From positions 42,055,693 to 42,119,692 of the forward strand of contig OX439045.1 of NCBI GenBank assembly GCA_949317995.1: a DNA stretch of 64,000 bases, in the 5' to 3' direction. Source of the DNA: Acholoe squamosa. Lineage: Eukaryota; Annelida; Polychaeta; Phyllodocida; Polynoidae. Position 1 is the stretch's first letter, and the number at the start of each line of letters is the position of its first letter. The notes under the pieces are model-generated. The model did not search any database. It saw only the letters and a program-made list of their open reading frames with translations, and had not been told where the DNA came from. Positions 5,195 through 60,676 of this stretch are shown here, piece by piece. The position numbers and the translations under genes were made by a program.

Positions 5195-5710
5195 ATTCTT
5201 AACATAGATTTTGATCTAGAAGGAATTTTCCATTTCTGTTTTTAGTTTTGGGTTTTTGGTGAATATCCCCGAAAATTGGTATAAAAATCTGCAAATTTTG
5301 ATTATTGGAATGGTTGCCATGGCAACCAGGAATAGGCATATAGGTTGATTTCTACTAAAAATGGTGCATTTTAAATGAGACCATCGGGCCTCCCTAGCCC
5401 ACTTAAAAGGGTCTATTTCTCCTCTTACCTATCCCCTCGGATGTGTGTGGTGCACATATATATGCGTTGGCACTGACACATTCTAATGTGAAATTGTGTA
5501 ATGTCGTTCTCACCATAAATATGACCTTAGCTGTCAAAATGCCGTTAAACACCTATTACTCATTCACTCAAATGAGACCATTGAATTCTGCATAAAAAAT
5601 TAGCATAACATATTTTTATAATAATTTTAGAGTAATTTTGCCTCTCCAATGCCACCTGGTGGCCAGATGGGGAATTAAAAATCCCCCGTGGAGGGGTGTT
5701 TTACCTTGAT
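5195..5710 (+). repeat. Dispersed repeat related to 14.23-14.54 kb, split by a retroposon
   Basis: Contains TTTTGATCTAGAAGGAATTT, a GTTGCCATGGCAAC-type palindrome and a CACCTGGTGG block. Similar elements occur in the same order at 14,239-14,540 (TTTTGATCTAGAAATGGCAT, TTTCCATGGCAAC, CACCCTAGTGG). The retroposon at 5,385-5,569 interrupts it; removing that insertion rejoins AAATGAGACCAT to the following sequence. Confidence 0.45.
5385..5569 (+). mobile_element. Short retroposon (SINE-like), copy 1, with 12-bp target duplication
   Basis: This is a ~185-bp unit starting near GGGCCTCCCTAGCCCACTTA and ending TTAAACACCTATTACTCATT plus a degenerate (ACTC)n tail. It is flanked by AAATGAGACCAT on both sides (5,373-5,384 and 5,570-5,581), as expected for target-primed retrotransposition. 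Copies 2 (7,606-7,788, minus) and 3 (26,974-27,155, plus) carry their own different duplications. No tRNA A/B box was found, so it may be a non-autonomous LINE 3' derivative instead of a tRNA SINE. Tails of the ACTC type are common for retroposons of marine invertebrates. Confidence 0.85.
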
Positions 5711-7594: not shown

Positions 7595-7605
7595 ATGGGG
7601 AAAGT

Positions 7606-7788
7606 GAGTGAGTGAGTAATAGATGTTTAACACCATTTCGACAGCTAAGGTCATATTCATGGTGAGAACTACATTACACAATTTCACAGAGGAATGTGTC
7701 AGTGCCTGCACATATGTGCACCACACACATTCCGAGGGATAGGAAAGAGGAGATATAGACCCTTTTAAGTGGGCTAGGGAAGCCCTGG
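7606..7788 (-). mobile_element. Short retroposon (SINE-like), copy 2, with 11-bp target duplication
   Basis: Minus-strand copy of the unit at 5,385-5,569. Read on the minus strand it starts GGCTTCCCTAGCCCACTTAA and ends TTACTCACTCACTCACTT. ATGGGGAAAGT flanks it on both sides (7,595-7,605 and 7,789-7,799). On the plus strand the tail appears as GTGAGTGAGTGAGTAATAGA. The copies are similar enough that insertion was probably fairly recent. Confidence 0.87.
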
Positions 7789-14229: not shown

Positions 14230-14540
14230 CTTTTGCCCATAACTTTTGATCTAGAAATGGCATTTCCATTCTGTTTTCACCATAGTACCTTGTAAAACGT
14301 TCCTTCAAATGGAATCATTGACTTTCTTATTTGGAATGAAAATCATGTTTCCATGGCAACAGAAATCAACAAAAATGCCTATTTAGGCCCAAACCATTCT
14401 TTTTACATGCCAAATTTGGAACATTTCCACCCAAAATAGAATGTTTTATCAAAAATCATTGAATTCTCCCTAAAAAAGTAGCCAATAGTAGTTTTAGTCA
14501 TACTTTTCCTATTCTAACCCATAGTGGTGCACCCTAGTGG
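14230..14540 (+). repeat. Dispersed repeat related to 5.2-5.7 kb
   Basis: Shares TTTTGATCTAGAA, a CCATGGCAAC block, ATTGAATTCT with a nearby run of A, and a final CACC-TGG block in the same order as 5,195-5,710. Diverged, with no ORF of interest. Confidence 0.45.
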
Positions 14541-21762: not shown

Positions 21763-23132
21763 AAAGTGTAATCGTTCTTAGAAAAACATTTTTCCATGCA
21801 CCGAGAGTTGATTAACAATCTGAGGATCAAACTCTGGTATAAGAAATACATCATTTTGTCTTATTGCAAATGTGGATTGGGGTAGCGGATAAATATATAT
21901 AGAGAGTTTGCCATGACTCCAGTGTGCATGATACTTATTCCACACTCTTGCTGGATAAATTTGTGAGAGCAGCAGCCATGCACAATGTGAAAACTGTCGA
22001 AAACATGGTTAGGCAGCTAATTAAATAATTTATAAATGGCCGATTTAAAATGGCGGAGGGTGGGTAGATGCTGTACATCTGTACTTAGTGTATCCCATAG
22101 ACTCACCCCACGATAATATGGGCATCTTTCATAGAAAGCACTTTTTGCTCTTCTTTTAACGAATCTTATCTTTCTGTCCCCTCTGGTTCTAACTGCTGCT
22201 GCAGCTAGAGCCTCTCCCCTGTTTGCCTTTTTCCACATTATACATAGCAGCTGTCTGTCGCGTCACTTGGCCAGCAGCTCTATTTTACTAATTTCATGCA
22301 GTCTGTCTATGCTAATTTCTCTCACCCTTCTATTTTGACAGACTCTCAGGCTTGGTTTTGCATTTGTTGCAGTTTGTTTAACACGCCACTATTGCAACAT
22401 CCAGTGTAGAAAGAACAATATTCGATCACCGGTACCATCATAACTTTATAAATTCTTAAGCTAATTTCAACAATCATACATTTACGAAGCCTGCAGAGCT
22501 TATACAGCTTGTTACCTAAACTCTTTTTTACTCTGCTAATCTGAGGGTTGATAGATAGGTGGGAGTCAAGCTCAACGCCCAGGTACGAGTAAGTGTCACA
22601 GTTTGGTAGGAGGTTGCCGTTAAAGCTTACTGTTAAGGCTGGAAGATTGCCTAATTTGTTTCTAGGACCAAAATACATGCACATACTCTTCAGAGTGTTC
22701 ACTGTCATGTAGTTTGTGAAGCACCAATTGGATATGCCATTGATATCGACCTGTAACTTATCAGCAGCTATCTGGGCATCCTTATCAGATACATATATTA
22801 TAATATCATCTGCCTACATTACACACTTGCCATGCACAATCCTCTCAGCTATATCATTTATAAACAACACAAACAGCAAGGGGCCCAGCGTTGACCCTTG
22901 TGGTACTCCAAATTTAACTTTGAGCTGTTTGAGCGGGTGTTATTTGCAATAGTCTCATGTGATCTATGTGCCAAGTAGTCTGTTAACCATCTTTTGAGCC
23001 TACCATGGATGTTCAGTCTGTAAATCTTATGTAATAGGGTAGGGTGATGCACACAGTCAAATGCTTTACAGAAGTCAATGAAACAGCAAGCTGTTATTCT
23101 CCCTTCATCGCGTGCTTCAAATAGGTCCTTAA

Positions 23133-23379
23133 CCCTTTAAAGGCCACTAATGCAGGAGTGCATCATGCCCAATGGTCGGCATGATGCACCAATGAAGTGC
23201 TGGTGAGACTGCTCACAGCACTTCATTGGAGCATCATCACGACCCTCTGGGGTATCAACCCTGTAGGGTCAGCATGATGCTCCAATGAAGTGCTGGCGAG
23301 CAATTTCGCCAGCACTTCATTGGTGCATCATGACAACTAATGGGCATGATGCATTAATGCATCAGCGGCCCTTAAAGGG
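23133..23379. mobile_element. piggyBac-like MITE with TTAA target duplication, nested in the LINE
   Basis: The element starts CCCTTTAAAGGCCACTAATG and ends in the complement of CCCTTTAAGGGCCGCTGATG. TTAA flanks both sides (23,129-23,132 and 23,380-23,383). TTAA duplication plus CCC-GGG termini is the piggyBac hallmark. Palindromy continues inward: TGCATCATGCC blocks, then CACCAATGAAGTGCTGG repeated in alternating orientation (four occurrences of the AATGAAGTGC core or its complement), so nearly the whole 247 bp can fold. It interrupts the LINE RT frame and so postdates LINE insertion. It has no coding capacity. Confidence 0.9.
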
Positions 23380-26973: not shown

Positions 26974-27155
26974 CAGGCATCCCTAGCCTACTTAAAAGGG
27001 TCTATTTCTTCTCTTTCCTATCCTCTCGGGATGTGTGTGGTGCACATATGCGCGGGCACTGACACATTCCCCTGTGAAATTGTTTAATGTAGTTTTCGCC
27101 ATGAATATGACCTTAGTTGTTGAAATGGCGTTAAACATCTATTACTCACTCACTC
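26974..27155 (+). mobile_element. Short retroposon (SINE-like), copy 3, with 15-bp target duplication
   Basis: Starts CAGGCATCCCTAGCCTACTT and ends TTAAACATCTATTACTCACT plus CACTCA. ACTCAGTGTCTGCTA flanks it (26,959-26,973 and 27,152-27,166); the duplication's first bases merge with the ACTC tail. Same unit as 5,385-5,569 and the minus-strand copy at 7,606-7,788. Confidence 0.87.
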
Positions 27156-27293
27156 AGTGTCTGCTATGATTACATGCATATTCCCATACGGTTGTCTGTG
27201 TCTCTACAAAGAAAGGATTATGGGTCATGTGTCCCCAAAAATGTCATGCGTTCCACCACCAACTAAGAATTATTATTGAGAAATCCAAAACAT

Positions 27294-37021: not shown

Positions 37022-37694
37022 TCATCACAGACTACTTACATTGTTGAGGCATGCACCTGCTACCAACCCACATTGTCATATACTACTCACATCGTTAAGT
37101 CATACACCTGCCACCAACCCACATTGTCATATACTACTTACATTGTTAAGACATTCACCTGCCACCAACCCACATTCTCAGATACTACTTACATTGATAG
37201 AGCATACATCTGCCACCAACCCACATTGTCATATACTACTTACATTGTTAAGGCATACACCTGCTACCGACCCACATTCTCATATACTACTTTGATTGTT
37301 AGAGCATACACCTACAACCAACCCACATTCTCATATACTACTTACATTGGTACAGCATTCACCTGCCACCAACCCACATTCTCAGATACTACTTACATTG
37401 ATACAGCATACATCTGCCACCAACCCATACCAGAAAGCTAATGCCATCTTTCTGTCCATACTGTTACATACTACTTATATTGGTACAGCATTCACCCACC
37501 CACATTGTCACACGCTACTACATCAATTAATACAGCATTCACCTGCAACCATATTATCACATAGGCCTACAATGTACATTGGTACCGCATTGACATGCCA
37601 CCTACCCACATTGTCACAAACACATACTACTCACATTGGTGCATCATACACCTTCCACCTACCCTCTTTTCCACATACTACTTACAGGTAAACA

Positions 37695-37696
<2 letters not shown>

Positions 37697-37749
<53 letters not shown>
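37697..37749. repeat. (TA)n microsatellite inside the 51-bp array
   Basis: About 26 TA units between the two sequence variants of the 51-bp array. Confidence 0.97.
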
Positions 37750-37752
<3 letters not shown>

Positions 37753-38298
37753 GCTACATACCAACATTGTTACATAATACTTGCAGTAATATAGCGTACA
37801 CCTGCTACATACCCACATTGTTACATACTACTTACAGTAATATAGCGTATATCTGCTACATACCCACATTGCTGCATACTACTTACAGTAATATAACGTA
37901 CACCTGCTACATACCCACATGTTACATACTACTTAAGTAATATAGCATACACTTGCTACATACCCACATTGTTACATACTACTTACAGTAATATAGCGTA
38001 TATCTGCTACATACCCACATTGCTGCATACTACTTACAGTAATATAACATACACCTGCTACATACCCACATTGCTGCATACTACTTAAGTAATATAGCAT
38101 ACACTTGCTACATACCCACATTGTTACATACTACTTACAGTAATAAAGCAGAAACCTGGTACATACCCACATTGCTGCATACTACTTACAGTAATAAAGC
38201 ATACACCTGCTACATACCCACATTGCTGCATACTACTAACAGTAATATAGCATACACATTGTTACATACTACTTACAGTAATAAAACATACACCTGCT

Positions 38299-41640: not shown

Positions 41641-43747
41641 TTAAGGGGAAGAAACAACTTTTTCAACAACTTGAACAATTTTATTTGAAAAGTCCTGAGC
41701 GAACATCCGGCACTTGTAACTTTGGCGCCAAACATGGCAGCGTCTCAAAGTTGAGCAAGGAGCGCAATCGTCTTTATTTTTCGGTATATCAGGAGACAAT
41801 GCGCTTTGAGAAGAAGACACATTATAGTTTATAGTAAGATTAATGTTCCCAGTGATGGAGGCATGGGCAAATATCCCCTGAACAGATATTATCATGGTGA
41901 ACAGCCATTCCCCCGGTAAAGAGACCGGGTGGTCAGGCAGGAGTTGACGGGCCTCTCCCTCAGCGTCCTCGACCAAGGCTGGTGGGAGACTGGACGGTGT
42001 CAAAGCTGGGGTCGGAGCCTTACCAATGGTGGCAGATGGCTTTCTTTTCTTCGATACACCTTGTATAGGCACTGATGTGCTGGACTTTGTGTTTGCAAAA
42101 CTATATTCAATGGATTTACGCTTTTGAGTAGCAGTGACTGGGAGATAAGGTCCGCTCATGGCCCTCTGATGCTCACGGTTTGCAGTATTGTAATTTGCAA
42201 TGCTGGCTTCATTTTTATGACCTGAGTGCTGAGCTATGTAGGTAGAAGGGACTTTAGCACCCATCAATGCCTCAATGCTACTTTTGCGCAGAGAGTGATT
42301 TTTTTTTCTTTCCTGTGACGCCCCCCTCCTTGCACACGGTCTTGACTATTTCACCCATAGTGTTCACACCCATGTTCCCTCTGATATTCCCAAATTCATC
42401 GTCAATGGTAGCTGTTCCGTGTGGGGTTAAGAACATAGGTGCCTCGTCATCACACATTTCAATAGGCCTTCTGGATACATAGTCCTTAAAGTACCAAATA
42501 GGGCATCTGTCCCCCTGAGTAGCCAAGATCCTTGGTGGGAAGGCCCTAGGTGCCGTCTTTCCACCTCTTGTTTTGGTTATTTTTTCTGTGTATTCCAGAT
42601 ACTCTACCCCATCTGTATCAGTTTTAAGCTCAACGTCACCATAACACATTTGCTTTGCTTCCTGGTTAGCACGCAATCCAAAGCCCATATAAAAAAAGAA
42701 AGAAAACAGTCTTTTGTAGTGTACCGGGATCAGCCATGCCCAGACTACCATTGGCCCACAACATTTCCATATCTTGCTTTGTCAGAGGTTCTGCTCGATT
42801 AGGACGATTCCCTTTACCTGCTGCCTTCAACTTCACTCTCTTGGCGTGCAGCACTTCTCTAGACATCTCAAATCGTGGGTCTTTTAAGGGATCCACCCAA
42901 TATTTTATATCCTTAAGATGCCTGGGTGGGTTTAATGCCAAAACATTAAATAAATTATATCAAAAATTTAAAAAAAAAAAATTATTAGTTAAATACACAC
43001 CTCAGGATTTCTCTGTGGGTTGATGTTAAAGTGTAAGACTTATGCTCCTCCCCGTTAGCCTTTTTCTTGCCTACAATGTAATTGCACATGAAATGATCTA
43101 GTTCAGGTGGTTCTATTAGATGAATGGGCCTGGTTTCATTGCAGAATTTATCAAACCACTTCTGGAATGCATTGACAACCTGTAGAAAATGTTAAAAAGT
43201 GTTAAAATCGTCTAAAAAGCCATAGTCCCCTTACAATCCTTATCTACATTGTCTATAACACCTTACAAAAGTAGGGCGCTCAGTACACATGCACTAAGAC
43301 ACTGCAGCGGGTGGACTTGGCACCATGCCAATGCTCCACTCGCTTTGTTTACTTTTTGAGACGCTCGTCTATAACATCGATTTCTTTACCCTAAAACTTC
43401 TACAATAGCTAAATATGACATACCTGGTTGGTTTTACAAATAGTATTCTTATTCTTTGCGCTGTCTACGTATTCTGTGAGGTCGTCAGTACTCATTAACT
43501 TTTCGGGCTTTGTCGGGTGCTGGACTTGCTGAGTCAACTTGGCTATATCATCAGGAATCATCTCCTCATCACTTCTATTGACGGGCATACCTGCAAAATC
43601 AACCTCAAAGTGGCCAACATTGTCAGCCCTGCTTACTGGCACAAAAATTAGAGTGGGTTGCTCTAAATCTTGGTTAAACTCGTCCATATTGATTCCTTGA
43701 AAATAGCTGTGACTGTCCATGGTGCATTGACGACTGGTGACAAACAC
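41641..43747 (-). CDS. Crypton-type tyrosine recombinase (DUF3504/KIAA1958-like), spliced, two frame breaks
   Basis: Minus-strand gene in three exons: 43,747-43,424, 43,179-43,001 and 42,921-41,641, ~590 codons. Donors CAG|GTATGT and GAG|GTGTGT and acceptors CTACAG| and CACCCAG| join in phase. Exon 1 gives an acidic leader. Exon 2 gives the N-terminal DNA-binding-like helices (VVNAFQKWFDKFCNETR, YTLTSTHREILR). Exon 3 has HLKDIKYWVDP, then the catalytic domain with its arginine box (GFGLRANQE), the HSLRKSS box (HxxR) and QHSGHKNEASIANY with the presumptive nucleophile Tyr. A Ser/Pro tail and a GNINLTINYN segment follow, as in KIAA1958-like proteins. Two frameshifts are needed, in T7/A7 at 42,691-42,697 and in the A/T run at 42,299-42,307. 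Both lie in homopolymers, so sequencing error or very recent decay is likely. Cryptons encode only this recombinase and move by site-specific recombination. Confidence 0.88.
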
Positions 43748-51000: not shown

Positions 51001-51249
51001 TAAGAATGGAGACACTCTCACCAATGGTGAACACTGTTGATCACAAATGCACCAACTAGGCTAATGCTGCCAGAATGTGATATACAACACAAACTATAAT
51101 TTGGGCAGTTCATATCAAAAGTGACATGACCCGAAAATACAGAAGGGTATTCTACAATAACATCACATACCTTTATTACAAATTTCCAGACGGAACGGTT
51201 AACTGACAGTAGTACTTTTCTATAGGTAGACAGCACAGCCGAAACCTAT
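48076..51249. other. Non-coding stretch, nothing recognised
   Basis: About 3.2 kb with only short ORFs (up to 98 codons, no domains) and no evident repeats. It is among the least repetitive stretches of the window, so regulatory or unannotated exon content cannot be ruled out. Confidence 0.4.
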
Positions 51250-51602
51250 AGTAGGGGCTGTTAAAGACAATTTCAGACCACAGGGGAACTTGCTGGACAA
51301 AACTCTGAAAATTTGCATATAAGTTCATTTTTAGCCCTCTTTAAAACTGGATGGGGAGACATTGTGAACTTCAATTGGAATACCCTTAAAACCAAGATGG
51401 CCACCACATAGACCAAATTTCCATTGAAATCCCTTATTTTACCCTCAAAGTCTCAAATTTCCCATTAATATGGTCATGTAATGGCTCATGTAATGGCTCA
51501 AAATGAAGGTCTTTCTAAGGAAAATCATACCCAATGGGAAATATTGATTTTCAGGTTGTGTAGTTCCAATGGCAACATAGAATTCATGTACCCGGGGCCA
51601 GA

Positions 51603-53131
51603 TTTCTGATAAAAACCCCTTATTTGCCCTCAAAATCTCAATTTATCCATCAATATCGTCATGTAAGGGCTCAAAATCTGTGAGAGGAAATCATAGGCTA
51701 AGGGAAATATTGATTTTTGGATACTGTGGTTACCATGGCAACAGAGAATTCATGTACCAAAGGACAAATTTTCAATAAAAGATCCTAATTTTAGCATTGA
51801 AATCTCAATTTATCCTTGGATATTGTCTTGTAAGGATTCAAAACATAGGTCTTTGAAAGGAAAATCATACACGATGGGAAACATTGACCTTCAGGTCCCG
51901 TGGTTACCAAGGCAACAGGGAATTCATGCAGCTGGGCCAATAAAAACACTTATTTTGCCATTGAATTCGCAATTTATCCATAAACATGGTCATGTGATGG
52001 CTCAAAATGAAGGTCTTTGTAAGGAAAATCATACACATAGGGAAATATTGATTTTCAGGTCAGGTGGTTACCATGGCAACATAGAATTCATGTACCTGGG
52101 TCCGGATTTCTGATAATAAACCCTTATTTTGCCCTCAAAATCTCAATTTATCCATAAATATGGTCAAGTAATAGCTCAAAACGAAGTCCTCTGTCAGGAA
52201 ATTCAGATCATAAACGAAGGGAAATATTGATTTTCAGAAAAAGTGGTTTTGCCATTGAAACCTCAATGTTTCATGGACATTGCCGTGTAAGGGCTCAAAT
52301 CCTAGGTGTTTTGGAAGGAGAACTATACACAATGGGAAACATTGACTTTCAGGGCCAATGACGGTTTCTGTGAGGCAAATCATACACACAGGGATTACCC
52401 TTTACCATGGCACCAGAGAATTAAGATGACCAAGGCCATATTTCTGATAGAAACCCCTTATTTTGCCATAAAAGTTAAAAAATTATGGCCATGTAATAGC
52501 TCCCGTTAAAGGTTATGCTAAGGGAAACCATGCACTATAGGGAATATTGATTTTTAGATGCTGTAGTTACCACTTCAAAAGAGAATTTAGATTTTTGATT
52601 TCTGATGAAAATCTTTCATTTTGCCAGCGAAATCTCTGTTATTCAATAAATATTGTCATCAATATCTCAAAAGGATGGTCCCAGGGAGATTGTGTACAAA
52701 AGAAAATATTGTTTCAAGGTACTGTGGTTACCATGACAACATAATTTGTATAGCTGTGGCACAGTCTCTGAAATTCTCTATTTTGTTAATGAAGTCAGGG
52801 GCAGATGTACCAGTAGTTAATAGTGTATTTGCCTTTTCTTATCCTCAAATTTAGTCAAATTGGAAACTAAAATGAAGGGTGCAACCCCTTCTTTTCAAAA
52901 TGCTGGATCCACCACTGGAAATTATCAATCATCATATAAATATGATCAAGATACCAAACTATCTCACTAAAGAGACAATCCATGCTACGATGCCATGCAC
53001 CATGGATATACTCCTAAGTGTTTCGCTATGGTTTCTTTTTTATGCTGTGCCCATAAATCTGTGACATTCAACCACCCTGAAAAACAGAGGAGGGAAGAAT
53101 TGGACTCACTGAATTATTCAACTTTAGGAGT
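51603..53131 (+). repeat. 1,529-bp tandem duplication, copy 1
   Basis: Identical on reading to 53,132-54,660 with a constant offset of 1,529. Similarity stops sharply at both outer ends (A versus T before TTTCTGATAAAAACCCC; T versus G after CTTTAGGAGT). It contains several ~165-bp arm units plus ~400 bp of other sequence. Confidence 0.95.
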
Positions 53132-54660
53132 TTTCTGATAAAAACCCCTTATTTGCCCTCAAAATCTCAATTTATCCATCAATATCGTCATGTAAGGGCT
53201 CAAAATCTGTGAGAGGAAATCATAGGCTAAGGGAAATATTGATTTTTGGATACTGTGGTTACCATGGCAACAGAGAATTCATGTACCAAAGGACAAATTT
53301 TCAATAAAAGATCCTAATTTTAGCATTGAAATCTCAATTTATCCTTGGATATTGTCTTGTAAGGATTCAAAACATAGGTCTTTGAAAGGAAAATCATACA
53401 CGATGGGAAACATTGACCTTCAGGTCCCGTGGTTACCAAGGCAACAGGGAATTCATGCAGCTGGGCCAATAAAAACACTTATTTTGCCATTGAATTCGCA
53501 ATTTATCCATAAACATGGTCATGTGATGGCTCAAAATGAAGGTCTTTGTAAGGAAAATCATACACATAGGGAAATATTGATTTTCAGGTCAGGTGGTTAC
53601 CATGGCAACATAGAATTCATGTACCTGGGTCCGGATTTCTGATAATAAACCCTTATTTTGCCCTCAAAATCTCAATTTATCCATAAATATGGTCAAGTAA
53701 TAGCTCAAAACGAAGTCCTCTGTCAGGAAATTCAGATCATAAACGAAGGGAAATATTGATTTTCAGAAAAAGTGGTTTTGCCATTGAAACCTCAATGTTT
53801 CATGGACATTGCCGTGTAAGGGCTCAAATCCTAGGTGTTTTGGAAGGAGAACTATACACAATGGGAAACATTGACTTTCAGGGCCAATGACGGTTTCTGT
53901 GAGGCAAATCATACACACAGGGATTACCCTTTACCATGGCACCAGAGAATTAAGATGACCAAGGCCATATTTCTGATAGAAACCCCTTATTTTGCCATAA
54001 AAGTTAAAAAATTATGGCCATGTAATAGCTCCCGTTAAAGGTTATGCTAAGGGAAACCATGCACTATAGGGAATATTGATTTTTAGATGCTGTAGTTACC
54101 ACTTCAAAAGAGAATTTAGATTTTTGATTTCTGATGAAAATCTTTCATTTTGCCAGCGAAATCTCTGTTATTCAATAAATATTGTCATCAATATCTCAAA
54201 AGGATGGTCCCAGGGAGATTGTGTACAAAAGAAAATATTGTTTCAAGGTACTGTGGTTACCATGACAACATAATTTGTATAGCTGTGGCACAGTCTCTGA
54301 AATTCTCTATTTTGTTAATGAAGTCAGGGGCAGATGTACCAGTAGTTAATAGTGTATTTGCCTTTTCTTATCCTCAAATTTAGTCAAATTGGAAACTAAA
54401 ATGAAGGGTGCAACCCCTTCTTTTCAAAATGCTGGATCCACCACTGGAAATTATCAATCATCATATAAATATGATCAAGATACCAAACTATCTCACTAAA
54501 GAGACAATCCATGCTACGATGCCATGCACCATGGATATACTCCTAAGTGTTTCGCTATGGTTTCTTTTTTATGCTGTGCCCATAAATCTGTGACATTCAA
54601 CCACCCTGAAAAACAGAGGAGGGAAGAATTGGACTCACTGAATTATTCAACTTTAGGAGT
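53132..54660 (+). repeat. 1,529-bp tandem duplication, copy 2
   Basis: Head-to-tail second copy of 51,603-53,131. The absence of visible differences, against diverged neighbouring units, means the duplication is very recent or an assembly artefact. Confidence 0.95.
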
Positions 54661-54960
54661 GTAGTGATGAGGTACACACACAGAAGGATGACCTTTACCT
54701 AGAAGACCATGTGCAGCAGGAAATATTGACTTTTTGGTGCATTGTGCTTACAATGGCAACAGAATCCATATAGCTGGAGGCACATTTTTCAAACCACTTA
54801 TATTGTTTTTAAGATATCTAATTATCCACATATATCAGTTCATGCAATAGATCAATACAATGTTTCTGCCTAGGGGAAATATATATAAGGTCTGATATGT
54901 TAGCATTCCAATGATGTGGTTACCATTGCAATAGACATCTATTCAATCTACCTAAATATT

Positions 54961-57459
54961 CAGTAAGCCTCTTGTTTAGCCAATACATAGGGCAATGATG
55001 AATTTACTTTTTTTTCAGGTGTAATCTCAAATTATGCACTTTACACAGGATTTTCTTTCTCATTGCTGGATCTCCCAGTAGGGGGGTCTAAGCTTTCCCA
55101 TACAGTGAAAATGATAATATTATAGCACAATTTGAGAATTTCAGAATACTTTGGAAATACTTTGATGTGATCATGAATTACGTTATAAAATGCTAATTTC
55201 TAGGACCTTAAGAGACCATCAGAAGTGATATTGTTGCAATTGTAATCGTATAACATGCCTTGGGGTGGGTTAATAGCCTTGGTGAAATACTGTTATCTCA
55301 CGATTCAGGCCAATCAGTGTGCTGTTTTGGTCATAACCCCGTTCCGTTAATGGGGTTTAACCGCACTCTGAGACATTTTCTTCATCTTCAAGAAGGTGCT
55401 GGTTTGAACCTGGACATGTTAATAAATTGGAGAAGGATACAAAGTCACCCTCGCTATACATTTCCAGTTAAAACCGTTCAGGGTTCTATGGGGAATCGAT
55501 ACTCGGCTGCTGTGACAGCAGCCGGGGATCGCTGTCCACTATACCAGGCCGAACGGTACTAGAAGCCAATGTACACGAAGGATTTGAAAAAGTTGTCCGA
55601 CATACCTGGGGCTTTGCACACCTTGTTAGTATAGAATCCAATGGTGCCATGTCGAGTTATTAACAGGGAACATCCTTAGATATCCTATATGAACATGCCA
55701 TGCCAAAGCACTCCATAATATTCAAAATAAATAAGAATCCAATGATTTTCCATAGCAATACGTCTTGGCACCCACCATTGTGGCTTGCTGACCTTTCACC
55801 CTTAACAAGGTCAGGCACTGACATCCGGTGTACTTTTACAGTGTCAACACAGCCCAGCTTGGCATTTCGCTTCGATTTATAAAGAATTTGTTGGTATTTG
55901 GCCTCTATATAGCCCAGAATGGCATTGAAACATGGTAAGAATAATCCTCGGCACCATGTAGTAAAGAATAGATAAGTTAAAAGGTTATTATCATAACATT
56001 TCAACATTAGAAATTGATTATCCACATGCCGGGGCCCTGCGGCGAAGCGGCCCAGGAATATGGGCAAGAAAGCACAGGACCACATCCGCTGAGGATTATT
56101 TTTCTATCTCTAGGCATAACAAAATGTTTTTCTCCTGGATTTATTATGGGGTTATAAGGTAAGAAATTGATACAAAATGGAGGAATAAGTGTGATAAACG
56201 CAATGATATATGTTTAACCTAGGACTCGGTGAGGTTACCTGGAAATATTTCCAGCAAACCTCACCTCATCCTAGGTTAAACATACATTAATTAATTAATA
56301 AATAAGGTAATTTGCAGGTTTTTGCTCTATACACATACAGGTATATACACCCTGATGGTAGTATGTTCACAATATATAAGAATGATTGATAAATAACCCA
56401 TTTATTCCTACTCACTGTCCCAGGCGACCTCCTTACCTAACCACTCTCCCACATATCCCATGCGTTACAATTTCAACCATTTGCAATGTCCCTCTATATG
56501 TTACATATTTTATCTGAGTATCGAAGTAAATATAGGATATACCATGTGGCACTGCAAAAAACACCACGCCAACTGTGAGTATGGTTTGCTTAGCAGGTGT
56601 TTCTGTGAGGGGTTCCCATCAACAATATACCGCTGGTACAGTCTTCTCCCCTGTCCCTGATTGTCTCTCGGCCCAAATGCTACATCGGATTTTCTCAAGA
56701 TTTTTTTGCAGGTGTGTACAATGCCAACAGGGTTTGAATTAGGACCTATATTATCTCTCGTGCCTTCTTGTGTTGCCTTGCAACTTATGAGACTTGTTCA
56801 GAATCTATGAGGGCAGCCAGGGATGTGTCAAAATGGATTAAGTGCATCCTTTCATCAATTTGTGACCCTTATCCAAACCTTCCCCCCCCCCTAAATTGCA
56901 CATGCACACACACATCTGTTCATCTATCACTGACTTCCTGCAACACCCTTACAACCACAACCACACTCTCCCTGTCTTACTCATACCTCCATCACACACA
57001 TTCCACCTCACATGTACATCAACCCCTTACTCAACACTTCACCTGATCATTCACCACACCCGTCCCTCCAGAGAAATACCATGCCAGGTACATCCACTAT
57101 GCACTTTGTTCCTCACTTATACCTCACTGACTACTTCCCACCTCATTCTATCTCGATCCATGATTGATATGCAAGAGAATTCAGCCCTTCAAGGATGGTC
57201 TGAAAGATCTCTATGAATATAATATGTGAAAATCTTCCCCTCCCCTCAGTTTGTAAGATAACAAGCCCTTTATACCATGACCGAAGGAGGTTTGACAGTG
57301 TCTGTATGTGTGTGGGTGGTAGTGTGCATGCAGGGAGTGGGCATGTTGAATACTGGTGATGATCTCCTACAATTGGTTACAAATGATACCATGGCTGTTT
57401 ATAAAATACAGATGATACAATTGGTGGGAAGGTTTTGAGCATTTCAGTGACAAAAAAGG
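54961..57459. other. Interior of the fold-back element, no recognised gene
   Basis: Unique-looking sequence between the arms. A 100-codon plus frame (55,260-55,562) and a 141-codon minus frame (56,085-55,660) were read for transposase motifs (DDE-type, zinc fingers) and none was recognised. One 15-bp hairpin lies at 56,210-56,283. The 56,880-57,130 portion is C/A-rich. Confidence 0.5.
56210..56283. repeat. Inverted repeat inside the fold-back interior
   Basis: ATGTTTAACCTAGGA and its exact complement, with an inner pair GTGAGGT / ACCTCAC and a central GGAAATATTTCC palindrome. Confidence 0.85.
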
Positions 57460-59102
57460 GGATTCAATAAGTAGGCATTTTACATTATGGGATCCCCTTG
57501 TCATAATCATTGTAATGAGCCATTACATGATAGCATTTCCAGGGATACTTGAAAATCAGACCTTTGTTGCTATAGCAATCAAAGGTAACAGTAATTATAA
57601 ATCACAAAAATCAATATTTCTTACCTTAAATGATTTCTCTTGAATCAAAGACCTATATTTTGAGCCGTTACTTGATGATGTTTATCAAGTGATGGTGATT
57701 TCAAATATAAAACATAGACTTTCCATGGGAAATCATAGTTATATAGATTCCCTCTTGCAATATATTTCTAATTGCACATGGCTTTTGCAAACCCTATAAT
57801 TGAATAAAGGCAATTTCGATGGTAAGATTAGGAATTTTCATAGCCCCAGGATGAATTCTGTGTTACTATGGTAACCATATGAAACTCAATAATTGCTATT
57901 CATGACAGCTGTCCCGAAGACCCTTTTTTGAGCCATTATGATATGATGACTGTGATAAATCGAGATCTAAAGGGCAAATTAAGGGTCTTTTTTTAAACTT
58001 GAAAACCTGGCACAAGCTATGCCTTGGTAACTATAAGCTCTAAAAATCAATATACCTTATAACATTACATGAGCATATCCATTGAGTAATCAAGATTTTG
58101 AAAGGAAATAAGGGGTCTTGATGGCAAAATAAGGGGCTTTTATTGTGAATTTGGCCTCAGGGACATGGGTCTTGTTGTCATGGTAACCAGTTAACCAAAA
58201 AGTCAATATTTCCCATTATGTACAATATCCCCCTCTAAGACCTTCATTATGAGCCATTACTTGACCATGTTCATGGATAAATTGATATTTTACTGGAAAA
58301 ATAAGGGGATTTTATTGAAAAGTTGTCCCCTGGTGCATGAATTCTCTGTTGCCATGGTAACCACAATATCCCGAAATCAAAATTTCCCTTTATTTATTAT
58401 TTCCCTCACAGAGACCTTTGTTTTGAGCCATGAAATGATGATATTTATGGATTAAGATTTTGAGGGCAAAATAAAGGTTTTCTATCAGAAATCTGATTTC
58501 TATGTTGCCATGGTAACCACACGACCTGAAAATCAAAATTTACCTATATGTATGATTTTCCTTACAAGGACCTATATTTTGAGCCATTACATGACCATGT
58601 TCATGGATAAGTTGAGATTTTAATGGCCAAATAAGGGTTCTTATTGGCCCAAGGTGCATAAATTCTCTGTTGCCATGTTTATGATTTCCCTCACAGATAC
58701 CTTCATTTTGAGCCCTTACATGATGATATTTATGGATAAATTAAGATTTTGAGGGCAAAGTAAGGGTTTGTTATCAGAAATCTGGTCCCAGGTACATGAA
58801 TTCTATGTTGCCGTGATAACCACACAACCTGAAAATCAATATTTCCCATTGGGTATGCTTTTCCTTTGTTTTGAGTCATTACCCGGCCATATTCATGGAT
58901 AAATTGAGATTTTGAGGGCAAAATATGGGGTTTTCATTGGAAATTTGACCTATATGGCAGCCAGCTTGGATTTTAGGGTGTTCCAATGGAATTTCGAAAT
59001 GTCTCCCCATCCAGATTTAAAGAGGGGCTAAAAATGAACCTGTATGCAATCTTTCAGAGTATTGTCCAGCAAGTTCCCCTGTGATCCATAACAGCCCTTA
59101 CT
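57460..59102 (-). repeat. Right arm of the fold-back element
   Basis: Inverted relative to the left arm: CATGAATTCTCTGTTGCCATGG with GTAACCAC, GAAAATCAATATTTCCCATT and GAGATTTTGAGGGCAAAATA recur every ~160 bp. It lacks the 1,529-bp duplication and is about half as long as the left arm. Confidence 0.85.
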
Positions 59103-60676
59103 GCTACCCTTGTCAAGGTAGTTAGGTAGGACTGAGTCACTAAACAACATGGCTGTCTGCCAAATCAGTCCCTCCAATCACCTCCATGAGAGGCGCAACA
59201 TGAAAGCTAAATCCCGATGTTTGAGGTGCAGTGAGGTTATTTCCAGACGAATAAATACCAGACCTCATCTCCCCTTATTTGCACTTGTAGACATAGTATT
59301 TGGCATGCTATCTGATAGACTCAGTTCTGATTCAGTGCCAATGTTTCAGTGATAGTGTAATTGCTTTTTCAAGCACAGGTCTTAAATAACCAGCCTTATC
59401 TGAGGGAATTGCAATAGAGAGGTTGGTTAGGAAAAGACAAAAGTTCTTTTAGAACCACTCTAAAAGGACAAGATCGCTGTAATTCAATATCAACCTGTAC
59501 CGGTGGGTTCGATACTGTCATAATTATATAGGTACATTGTACTGGTTTTATAAAAATGCTATCACACATGGAAGCACAACTGATTGGAACATTGATTCAC
59601 TGAAAGGATGGAGTTAGTCTAGGAGGCCATTACTACGAATGCACACTCCAAGTCATACCAAATTCCCATAGGATTAGCATTAGGATTTCATCTCGTAAGT
59701 GATCATTGTGTGTTAAGAAATGACCTCCTGGTGTCCTCTAACAAGGAGGGAGTGGGGAATTATGTCCTGCTGAAAAGTGTGCCTACGGACCTGCAGAATA
59801 CCAGCGACCACTAGTCTTGAGCCTTACTACAGCCTAGAGCAAGATAAACTAAACCCATAATAAGACAATATAGCATAAATATCAAGAATAGTATAGGTTC
59901 CCTAGGATATGTTACTCAATAGTGTCCTATAGTGCAAGCCACCTCCCTCTACCCCCCCTCCTTAAAAGTAGGCTCCCTTTTGTGTTCAGTATTGAGTCTA
60001 ATGTAGGATAAGGGGGTTTATAGAGGTGTCAGGAATCTTTATCAGAGTGATATCAAATGGAAACAAGGGGCCACCTGTACCAAAGAATCCTGTTGAATCC
60101 AAAATTTGTGGTCTTGATTCTCAAATTCGGCCAAAGGTACCTAAAAATGAGGTTTGATGATGAGAATATTTTAAAAATGTAAAAAAGTTATATTGAAAAT
60201 GATTGGAACTTTTTATAGATGCAACATGCTAATCAAAGTCAGTACCTTAATATACATACCCCAATGTTTGCCTATCCCAACCTGACTACTACTCTACCTG
60301 CGTATGGCTCTGCCTCTCCCACATACTGCCTATCCCTTAGTCTGACTATCACTCATACTACCTATCCCCTGAAACATCTAGAGTTTAATTAGGTTTTCCT
60401 TCAAATGGCTTAAAGGATTAAAGTTTACCCCTCACCTTTGTACCTAATTTTCTCTGTACATTCTTACCAACAGTCTAACCTCAAGGATATATAGCATGAG
60501 TGATAGGTAGATGTATGCGTGAAGTAGACTGTTAAATTTGTTCCTTAGGGGATAGGGTGACTAAGAGATCAAAATGAAGGTTGGTTGTGAGCTATCCCAG
60601 CTGAACAAGCTGTAATAGATTATGAAGGCATGCACAATGTCTCCAATATATACACAATAAAGAAGAATCAATTGAT
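59103..60676. other. Non-coding stretch with one MITE copy
   Basis: No supported gene. The MITE-like copy at 59,625-59,730 is annotated separately. Confidence 0.4.
59625..59730. mobile_element. Small MITE, copy 2 (related to 6,646-6,769)
   Basis: GGAGGCCATTACTACGAATG at the left and GTTAAGAAATGACCTCCTGG at the right match the ends at 6,646-6,769. The interior is different. Confidence 0.45.

Follow-up and report, generated by a model that had tools for sequence, protein, structure and literature searches.

Fold-Back Elements and the Acholoe squamosa Locus

The FB element of Drosophila melanogaster and the TU elements of sea urchins share a general fold-back architecture with the subject of this report, an element at positions 51249-59103 of a 64,000-nucleotide stretch (the window) of the genome of the polynoid annelid Acholoe squamosa (assembly GCA_949317995.1, contig OX439045.1, positions 42,055,693 to 42,119,692, forward strand). 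The likeness to FB and TU refers to architecture. PMC4079207 also refers to foldbacks of flies and of sea urchins. Galileo, a Drosophila element of the P superfamily, resembles the window element in its long inverted arms, internal tandem repeats, and variable arm length, the repeats of subfamily F in D. mojavensis being ~210 bp long (PMC3573991). The arm repeats of GalileoG hold extra transposase sites (PMC3688188). Tetris of Drosophila virilis is a fold-back without coding capacity that has a flanking domain, ~220-bp tandem arm repeats, and a variable middle, with one repeat-number duplication between alleles (PMC4079207).

How does the Acholoe locus compare? It is built like Galileo and Tetris and belongs to neither by the length of its target site duplication (TSD). 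Galileo makes 7-bp duplications and has a P-type transposase, whereas the window family makes 3-bp duplications and the conserved core of its arm units differs from its terminal domain. The P element itself makes an 8-bp target duplication. No transposase domain, P-type or other, appeared in the pieces searched, and no genome search was aimed at the P type. Tetris makes 8-10-bp duplications, whereas none of 12 copies of the window family has matching flanks at 4-8 bp, the range tested. The window family extends fold-back anatomy beyond elements that, like Galileo and Tetris, make duplications of 7-10 bp. Searches of paper listings, which did not cover Repbase and Dfam, showed no such element and do not contradict the initial annotation's suggestion of an undescribed family, and the letters of the terminal sequence retrieved only papers unrelated by title. 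Exact-pattern searches of viral and bacterial collections and a blastn search of a phage collection gave no match.

We conclude that the element is very probably a fold-back DNA transposon that moves by cut-and-paste and is non-autonomous. Its mobility, a conjecture in the initial annotation, is shown by the pairing of its ends, by the 3-bp TSD that flanks them, and by dispersed copies with a common centre.

Paired Ends and Target Site Duplication

Self-BLAST of the window aligned inverted arms at 51276-52186 and 59086-58242 with 75.4% identity over 915 columns. Alignment of the arms placed the outer limits at 51250 and 59102, to which comparison with the family adds one base per side. Outside these limits the flanks are dissimilar, 156 of 200 shuffles reaching their score, while the terminal domains of the two arms align with a score of 197 against a shuffle maximum of 32. 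The initial annotation had described two inverted ends ~7.85 kb apart, with arms built of ~165-bp units, and self-BLAST, arm alignment, and the unit profile all agree. Its description of the arms as arrays of divergent units holds for the arrays but not for the outermost ~165 bp of either arm, a terminal domain in which no unit occurs.

The genome compared was the 1.48-Gb assembly in 63 contigs from which the window is taken. Each search scored the best ~40 candidates, which makes the copy numbers lower bounds, and ends were paired by eye. A query of the first 201 bp gave 103 candidates, of which the best 40 were scored, and the right-end query gave 41 matches from 75 candidates. Among the matches listed, 25 of the 40 left-end matches fall into 12 inverted groups whose ends lie 3-26 kb apart; four further ones gain a partner from the right-end or end-pattern searches. 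Eleven pairs besides the window were compared, plus five more stretches afterwards. The terminus of the element is TAGTRGGGGCTGTTA, with few changes among copies, giving the motif TAGTRGGGG and TAGT..ACTA ends. The 3 bp outside this terminus agree within 11 of 12 copies, versus 8 of 132 comparisons between copies (binomial p 4.6e-13). In the window the duplicated triplet is CTA, at 51246-51248 and 59104-59106. The count leaves out C9d (second end beyond the sequence compared), L029 (L end truncated), and L032 and L033 (one end found).

The two ends of a copy are not alike. Each of 11 aligned copies has one L end, with ~10 extra bases behind the terminus, and one R end. Identity is 88.4% among L ends and 88.9% among R ends, compared with 83.2% between L and R within a copy and 82.3% between copies, and the L ends form one group with a support of 1.000. 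As L-R identity is nearly equal within and between copies, the ends diverged before the family spread and have been kept as a pair. Arm divergence is therefore inherited, and the insertion in the window cannot be dated from the low identity of its arms. For the same reason the use of arm divergence as an insertion clock was ruled out.

Could the arms be two unrelated satellite arrays that face each other by chance? This was the outcome that, according to the initial annotation, would reduce the structure to two opposite arrays. The arms are indeed tandem arrays, and single ends without a listed partner exist. Nevertheless, the arms share terminal domains that are not unit sequence and end abruptly, and in the genome the ends recur as inverted pairs of the same two types, with a common centre and 3-bp duplications. 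Chance arrays are refuted by this, and we give them practically no weight. A local inverted segmental duplication involving no transposon would be in keeping with arms that are only ~75% alike and with a partly collinear order of units. It is refuted by an L-R divergence of nearly equal size within copies and between them and by dispersed copies with 3-bp duplications, and appears extremely improbable. What was found instead are the features of a fold-back family: long inverted arms with internal tandem repeats, dispersed copies with constant ends, and a TSD of constant length. The annotation had named copies with identical ends and constant-length duplications as the sign of mobility, and 11 of 12 copies bear this out. 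The genome search with the outer 200 bp that it had proposed yielded full copies, exact ends, and the target duplication, but not the autonomous relative.

Individual copies depart from this plan. Copy C5b has a third, R-type end (L018:296, C5:73189796), whose nearest flank repeats the flank of the normal R end, as if a segment plus its flank had been duplicated in inverted form. Very short copies that keep both ends, resembling miniature inverted-repeat transposable elements, occur at C16:52539754-52540464 (L030, 0.7 kb) and C9:76366688-76367042 (L031, 0.35 kb).

A Shared Centre with No Transposase Domain Found

Of the 11 other copies in the TSD comparison, 9 share two parts of the window centre, A (54960-55290, + strand) and B (56291-57500, + strand), at 71-92% identity per piece. 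The centre is present in 10 of 12 copies including the window, and also in L029 and L033. In an alignment of nine centres, part B is 80-91% identical to the window. Between the two parts the window carries a ~1-kb insert (55291-56290) that other centres lack at that place; parts of it, 55358-55460 and 55529-55855, recur in L023.

The nine centres form three subfamilies: SF1 (the window, L010, and L018; support 0.976), SF2 (L009 and L011; 1.000), and SF3 (L012, L013, L015, and L020), with the split of SF1 and SF2 from SF3 supported at 1.000. Relative to the L end the centre is inverted in SF3 and in L029, and in L015 the spacer of the left arm has moved to the far side together with the inverted centre. 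This fits recombination between the arms of an ancestor.

Does any copy encode the enzyme that moves the family? No codon-phase signal shows in the nine-centre alignment, and the centres have no long open reading frame (ORF) in common. In Pfam searches, neither 12 ORF pieces from the window centre nor 43 of the 55 ORFs of at least 120 aa in L009-L028 contained a DNA-transposase domain, the other 12 of these ORFs being mostly repeats or overlapping frames. This agrees with the initial annotation, in which the centre has no recognisable enzyme and the element may be non-autonomous. The copies are taken as non-autonomous, a view supported as far as ORF pieces were searched. No autonomous partner was detected among the copies of this family or of the related family described below. 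The DDE_Tnp_4 profile (PF13359) gave 151 matches from the best 150 of 2938 candidates, and by eye none of those listed lies beside known ends. The PF07592 profile had no match in the genome and none in 14 controls either, and is uninformative.

Long copies of 20-26 kb contain retroelement pieces. Reverse transcriptase exceeds the cut-off in L019 and L023 and an integrase zinc domain does so in L023, while reverse transcriptase in L017, Phage_integrase in L019, and capsid/gag in L023 fall under it. We take these domains as nested insertions. Apart from these, the only domain above its cut-off is DUF6227, which scores 26.3 bits (cut-off 25) in a proline-rich, repetitive piece at L013:1426-1908.

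A Sister Family with the Same Ends

A search with the end pattern TAGTRGGGGCTGTTANRGN, allowing one mismatch, gave 178 matches for the two families combined, versus 11 for the reversed control; ~100 of the 178 places were listed. Many of them belong to a second fold-back family, F2, which has the same terminal domain as the window family, F1, and like it one long and one short end. Two F2 queries gave 258 and 246 candidates, of which 40 each were scored, and 69 and 65 matches were listed.

F1 and F2 differ in their arms. In the F2 units (~160 bp) it is the inner portion of the terminal domain that is repeated, and their best 14-bp block is AAATCCAAGATGGC (71 of 82 unit rows kept). The Tetris repeat may likewise derive from its flanking domain, with which it shares 37 bp (PMC4079207); a repeat related to the terminal domain is seen in F2 and not in the window family. 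With unit L5 left out, no match of the F1 arm unit to the terminal domain exceeded shuffles, and an origin of the F1 unit from its own terminal domain is not supported. Units of F1 and F2 are related over ~55 bp (score 97 vs a shuffle maximum of 41) and otherwise unlike. On a simple reading of these alignments, F1 would have kept its ends and replaced half of its unit. Two families with the same terminal domain and different arm units in one genome make the roles of ends and arms separable.

Six ORF pieces of F2 loci were searched; none exceeded the cut-off except one in L038, a reverse transcriptase, and the piece of L042 lies outside a complete element. The F2 copy L037 on C1 carries two L ends (L037:101 and L037:1592), 1.49 kb apart and bordered by the same outer flank. 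This double L end is a tandem duplication like that in the left arm of the window element.

Classification and Proposed Mode of Transposition

Which class of transposon is this? EnSpm/CACTA and Harbinger elements also make 3-bp duplications (PMC12730594). The termini TAGTRGGGG, which are not CAC..GTG, rule out EnSpm/CACTA. PIF/Harbinger duplications are of the TNA type, and this group is ruled out by duplications such as CTC, CAA, AAT, and TAC, which do not share a TNA pattern. Academ and Zator make 3-bp duplications, a length that fits the window family. Polintons have 6-bp duplications and AG ends; considered for the 20-26-kb copies, they are ruled out by the 3-bp duplication and by the retroelement pieces that the long copies contain.

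A non-autonomous Helentron (HINE) deserves separate mention. Helentrons and HINEs of the Pacific oyster are mobile elements that carry satellite-like tandem repeats, with HINE monomers mostly 160-180 bp long, similar to the units here (PMC7492417). They leave no target duplication, have no long inverted arms, and hold their repeats between two modules, whereas the window element has both long inverted arms and a 3-bp duplication; we see next to no chance that it is a HINE.

For a non-autonomous cut-and-paste transposon we propose the following mode. The transposase of an autonomous relative would recognise the two unlike ends and move the element in trans, cutting with a 3-bp stagger. The tandem arm units would serve as extra docking sites for protein, most of them through a near-palindromic core. 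Arms would change in length by duplication, of which an identical 1,529-bp copy in the window would be an example if it is no assembly error, and recombination between inverted arms would have left the centre inverted in one subfamily.

Several observations weigh against this account. No autonomous element or transposase was found, and mobilisation in trans is therefore inferred. Eleven of the 40 scored ends have no partner among the matches listed; solo or truncated ends exist besides full copies. C2 and L031 each miss the 3-bp match by one base, which makes the count 11 of 13 when L031 is included. Two of the 12 copies, C15a and the 0.7-kb C16, have no centre. In F2 the 3-bp duplication matches in 5 of 9 copies, versus 4 of 72 comparisons between copies, a weaker signal than in F1. 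Lastly, the core in the arms figures in the account as a candidate docking site, and over all 19 window units it ranks below GAAATATTGATTTT.

A Near-Palindromic Core in the Arm Units

Why carry kilobase-long repetitive arms? The usual answer is that they offer multiple transposase sites. Most F1 units hold the near-palindrome GTTACCATGGCAAC, as at 51729-51742 (+ strand), or a close variant, and this core fits the X-box consensus of RFX1, GTNRCCN0-3RGYAAC (PMC3414849). Other cores with at most two mismatches on the unit strand lie in the left arm at 51563, 51903, 52067, 52401, 52727, 54747, and 54919 (+), in a duplicated set at 53258, 53432, 53596, 53930, and 54256 (+), and in the right arm at 57862, 58174, 58348, 58504, and 58807 (-). 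The left arm has six sites that obey the strict consensus, of which three lie in the duplicated copy, against a shuffle mean of 0.02 for this arm; the right arm has three (shuffle mean 0.0). The centre has none and the rest of the window three (shuffle mean 0.44, maximum 3). Within two mismatches, none of nine F2 loci contains an X-box.

Conservation of the core was compared with that of other blocks of the same units. Over nine outer units of the window (L5, which lacks the core, left out) it ranks first of 162 blocks. For the family test, 99 of 152 unit rows were kept (at least 130 of 169 positions); here the core ranks second of 156 blocks, behind its own one-base shift only, and its conservation is 0.937, where blocks average 0.849 (sd 0.047). 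It is present within one mismatch in 82 of 98 units, compared with a median of 37% for blocks, and in all 19 F1 loci counted. Two points reduce the force of this result: over all 19 window units the core ranks seventh of 160 blocks, behind GAAATATTGATTTT and overlapping frames, and core-anchored units served to seed the profile, a choice that favours the core.

What might bind it? From the sequence, the docking protein would be a host RFX factor or the transposase. It is quite plausible that a transposase binds the core, which would then resemble the X-box by coincidence, though we stop short of calling this probable. The transposase domain of Galileo binds sites in the arm repeats (PMC3688188), and the core recurs in every F1 locus counted. 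On the other hand, the terminal domain, where a transposase must act, has no unit match above shuffles, and F2, with the same terminal domain, lacks the X-box, so that a shared transposase would need none.

Alternatively, the core may be a docking site for host RFX, giving the element expression, a chromatin state, or a nuclear position in cells where RFX is active. The fit to the consensus, the enrichment in the arms, the RFX DNA-binding domains of the host genome (10 matches above the cut-off), and the absence from F2 loci argue for RFX docking; against it, the argument is one of likeness in sequence, and similar palindromes occur in other dispersed repeats of the window (at 5313 and 14347). 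We consider RFX docking possible and somewhat doubtful. With its arrays of RFX-like sites, the window family could serve to test whether the arms of mobile elements attract regulators of the host. A third explanation, that the core is conserved through low mutability or recent amplification alone, would suit a core without CpG, units that are recent within subfamilies, and a moderate difference from other blocks. As the core stands above other blocks of the same units, we regard this explanation as unlikely.

Taken together, these comparisons allow a wider speculation, itself unlikely to hold in full. In a fold-back lineage with a 3-bp TSD and TAGT..ACTA ends, a sister pair would have kept its ends and exchanged half of its arm unit, one family repeating the terminal module AAGATGGC, which we take to resemble a YY1 site, and the other carrying an RFX X-box palindrome. 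Docking of host transcription factors, beyond transposase binding alone, would then shape the arms.

Detailed Anatomy of the Window Element

The left terminal domain, of L type, spans 51249-51412 (+), starts TAGTAGGGGCTGTTAAAG, and holds one AAGATGGCC; it is kept across copies and common to F2. The right terminal domain, of R type, spans 58952-59103 (-) with the outward end CAGTAAGGGCTGTTATGG, as defined by arm alignment and family comparison.

Matches to the ~165-bp unit profile extend over 51463-54935 (+) and 57496-58951 (-). Profile matches and unit alignments divide the left array into a partial unit followed by units L1-L9, some truncated (51413-52795, +; inner limit set by eye), and the inner diverged units L10-L11 (54661-54960, +). 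The right array holds units R1-R8 plus fragments (57496-58951, -). Per 100 bp, homology between the arms is 0.74-0.90 in the outer 1 kb and 0.59-0.76 deeper in. The outer units of the two arms resemble each other and belong alternately to type A (L1, L4, R1, R3) and type B (L2, R2, R4). The inner units (57496-58121 and 54661-54960) have diverged further than these, and in a tree with weak support some of them cluster with units of the opposite arm. From this greater inner divergence, the arrays may be renewed near their ends.

A non-unit spacer lies within the left arm (52796-53131, +), and parts of it recur in L010, L015, L018, L021, L022, L024, and L025. The left arm is extended by a 1,529-bp tandem duplication, whose second copy (53132-54660, +) is identical to the first (51603-53131). 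In the related copies L010 and L018 the spacer segments are single, and no such duplication is seen. The identical copy is either a very recent duplication or an assembly error.

Other Repeats in the Window

The palindromes at 5313 and 14347 lie in a diverged dispersed repeat (5203-5628 and 14238-14507) that matches the arm-unit profile weakly. Its first copy is split by an insert resembling a short interspersed element (SINE); three such SINE-like copies, 86-92% alike, occur at 5381-5570, 7605-7784, and 26976-27156. Weak RVT_1 pieces at 22349-23136 (-), under the curated cut-off, mark a decayed element resembling a long interspersed element. DUF3504 and Phage_integrase pieces, also under their cut-offs, lie at 41644-42781 (-), a pairing presumably like that in Crypton-type tyrosine recombinases. 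Arrays of a 51-bp minisatellite occupy 37031-37427 and 37737-38269, and the latter array also has a higher-order period, of 152 bp.

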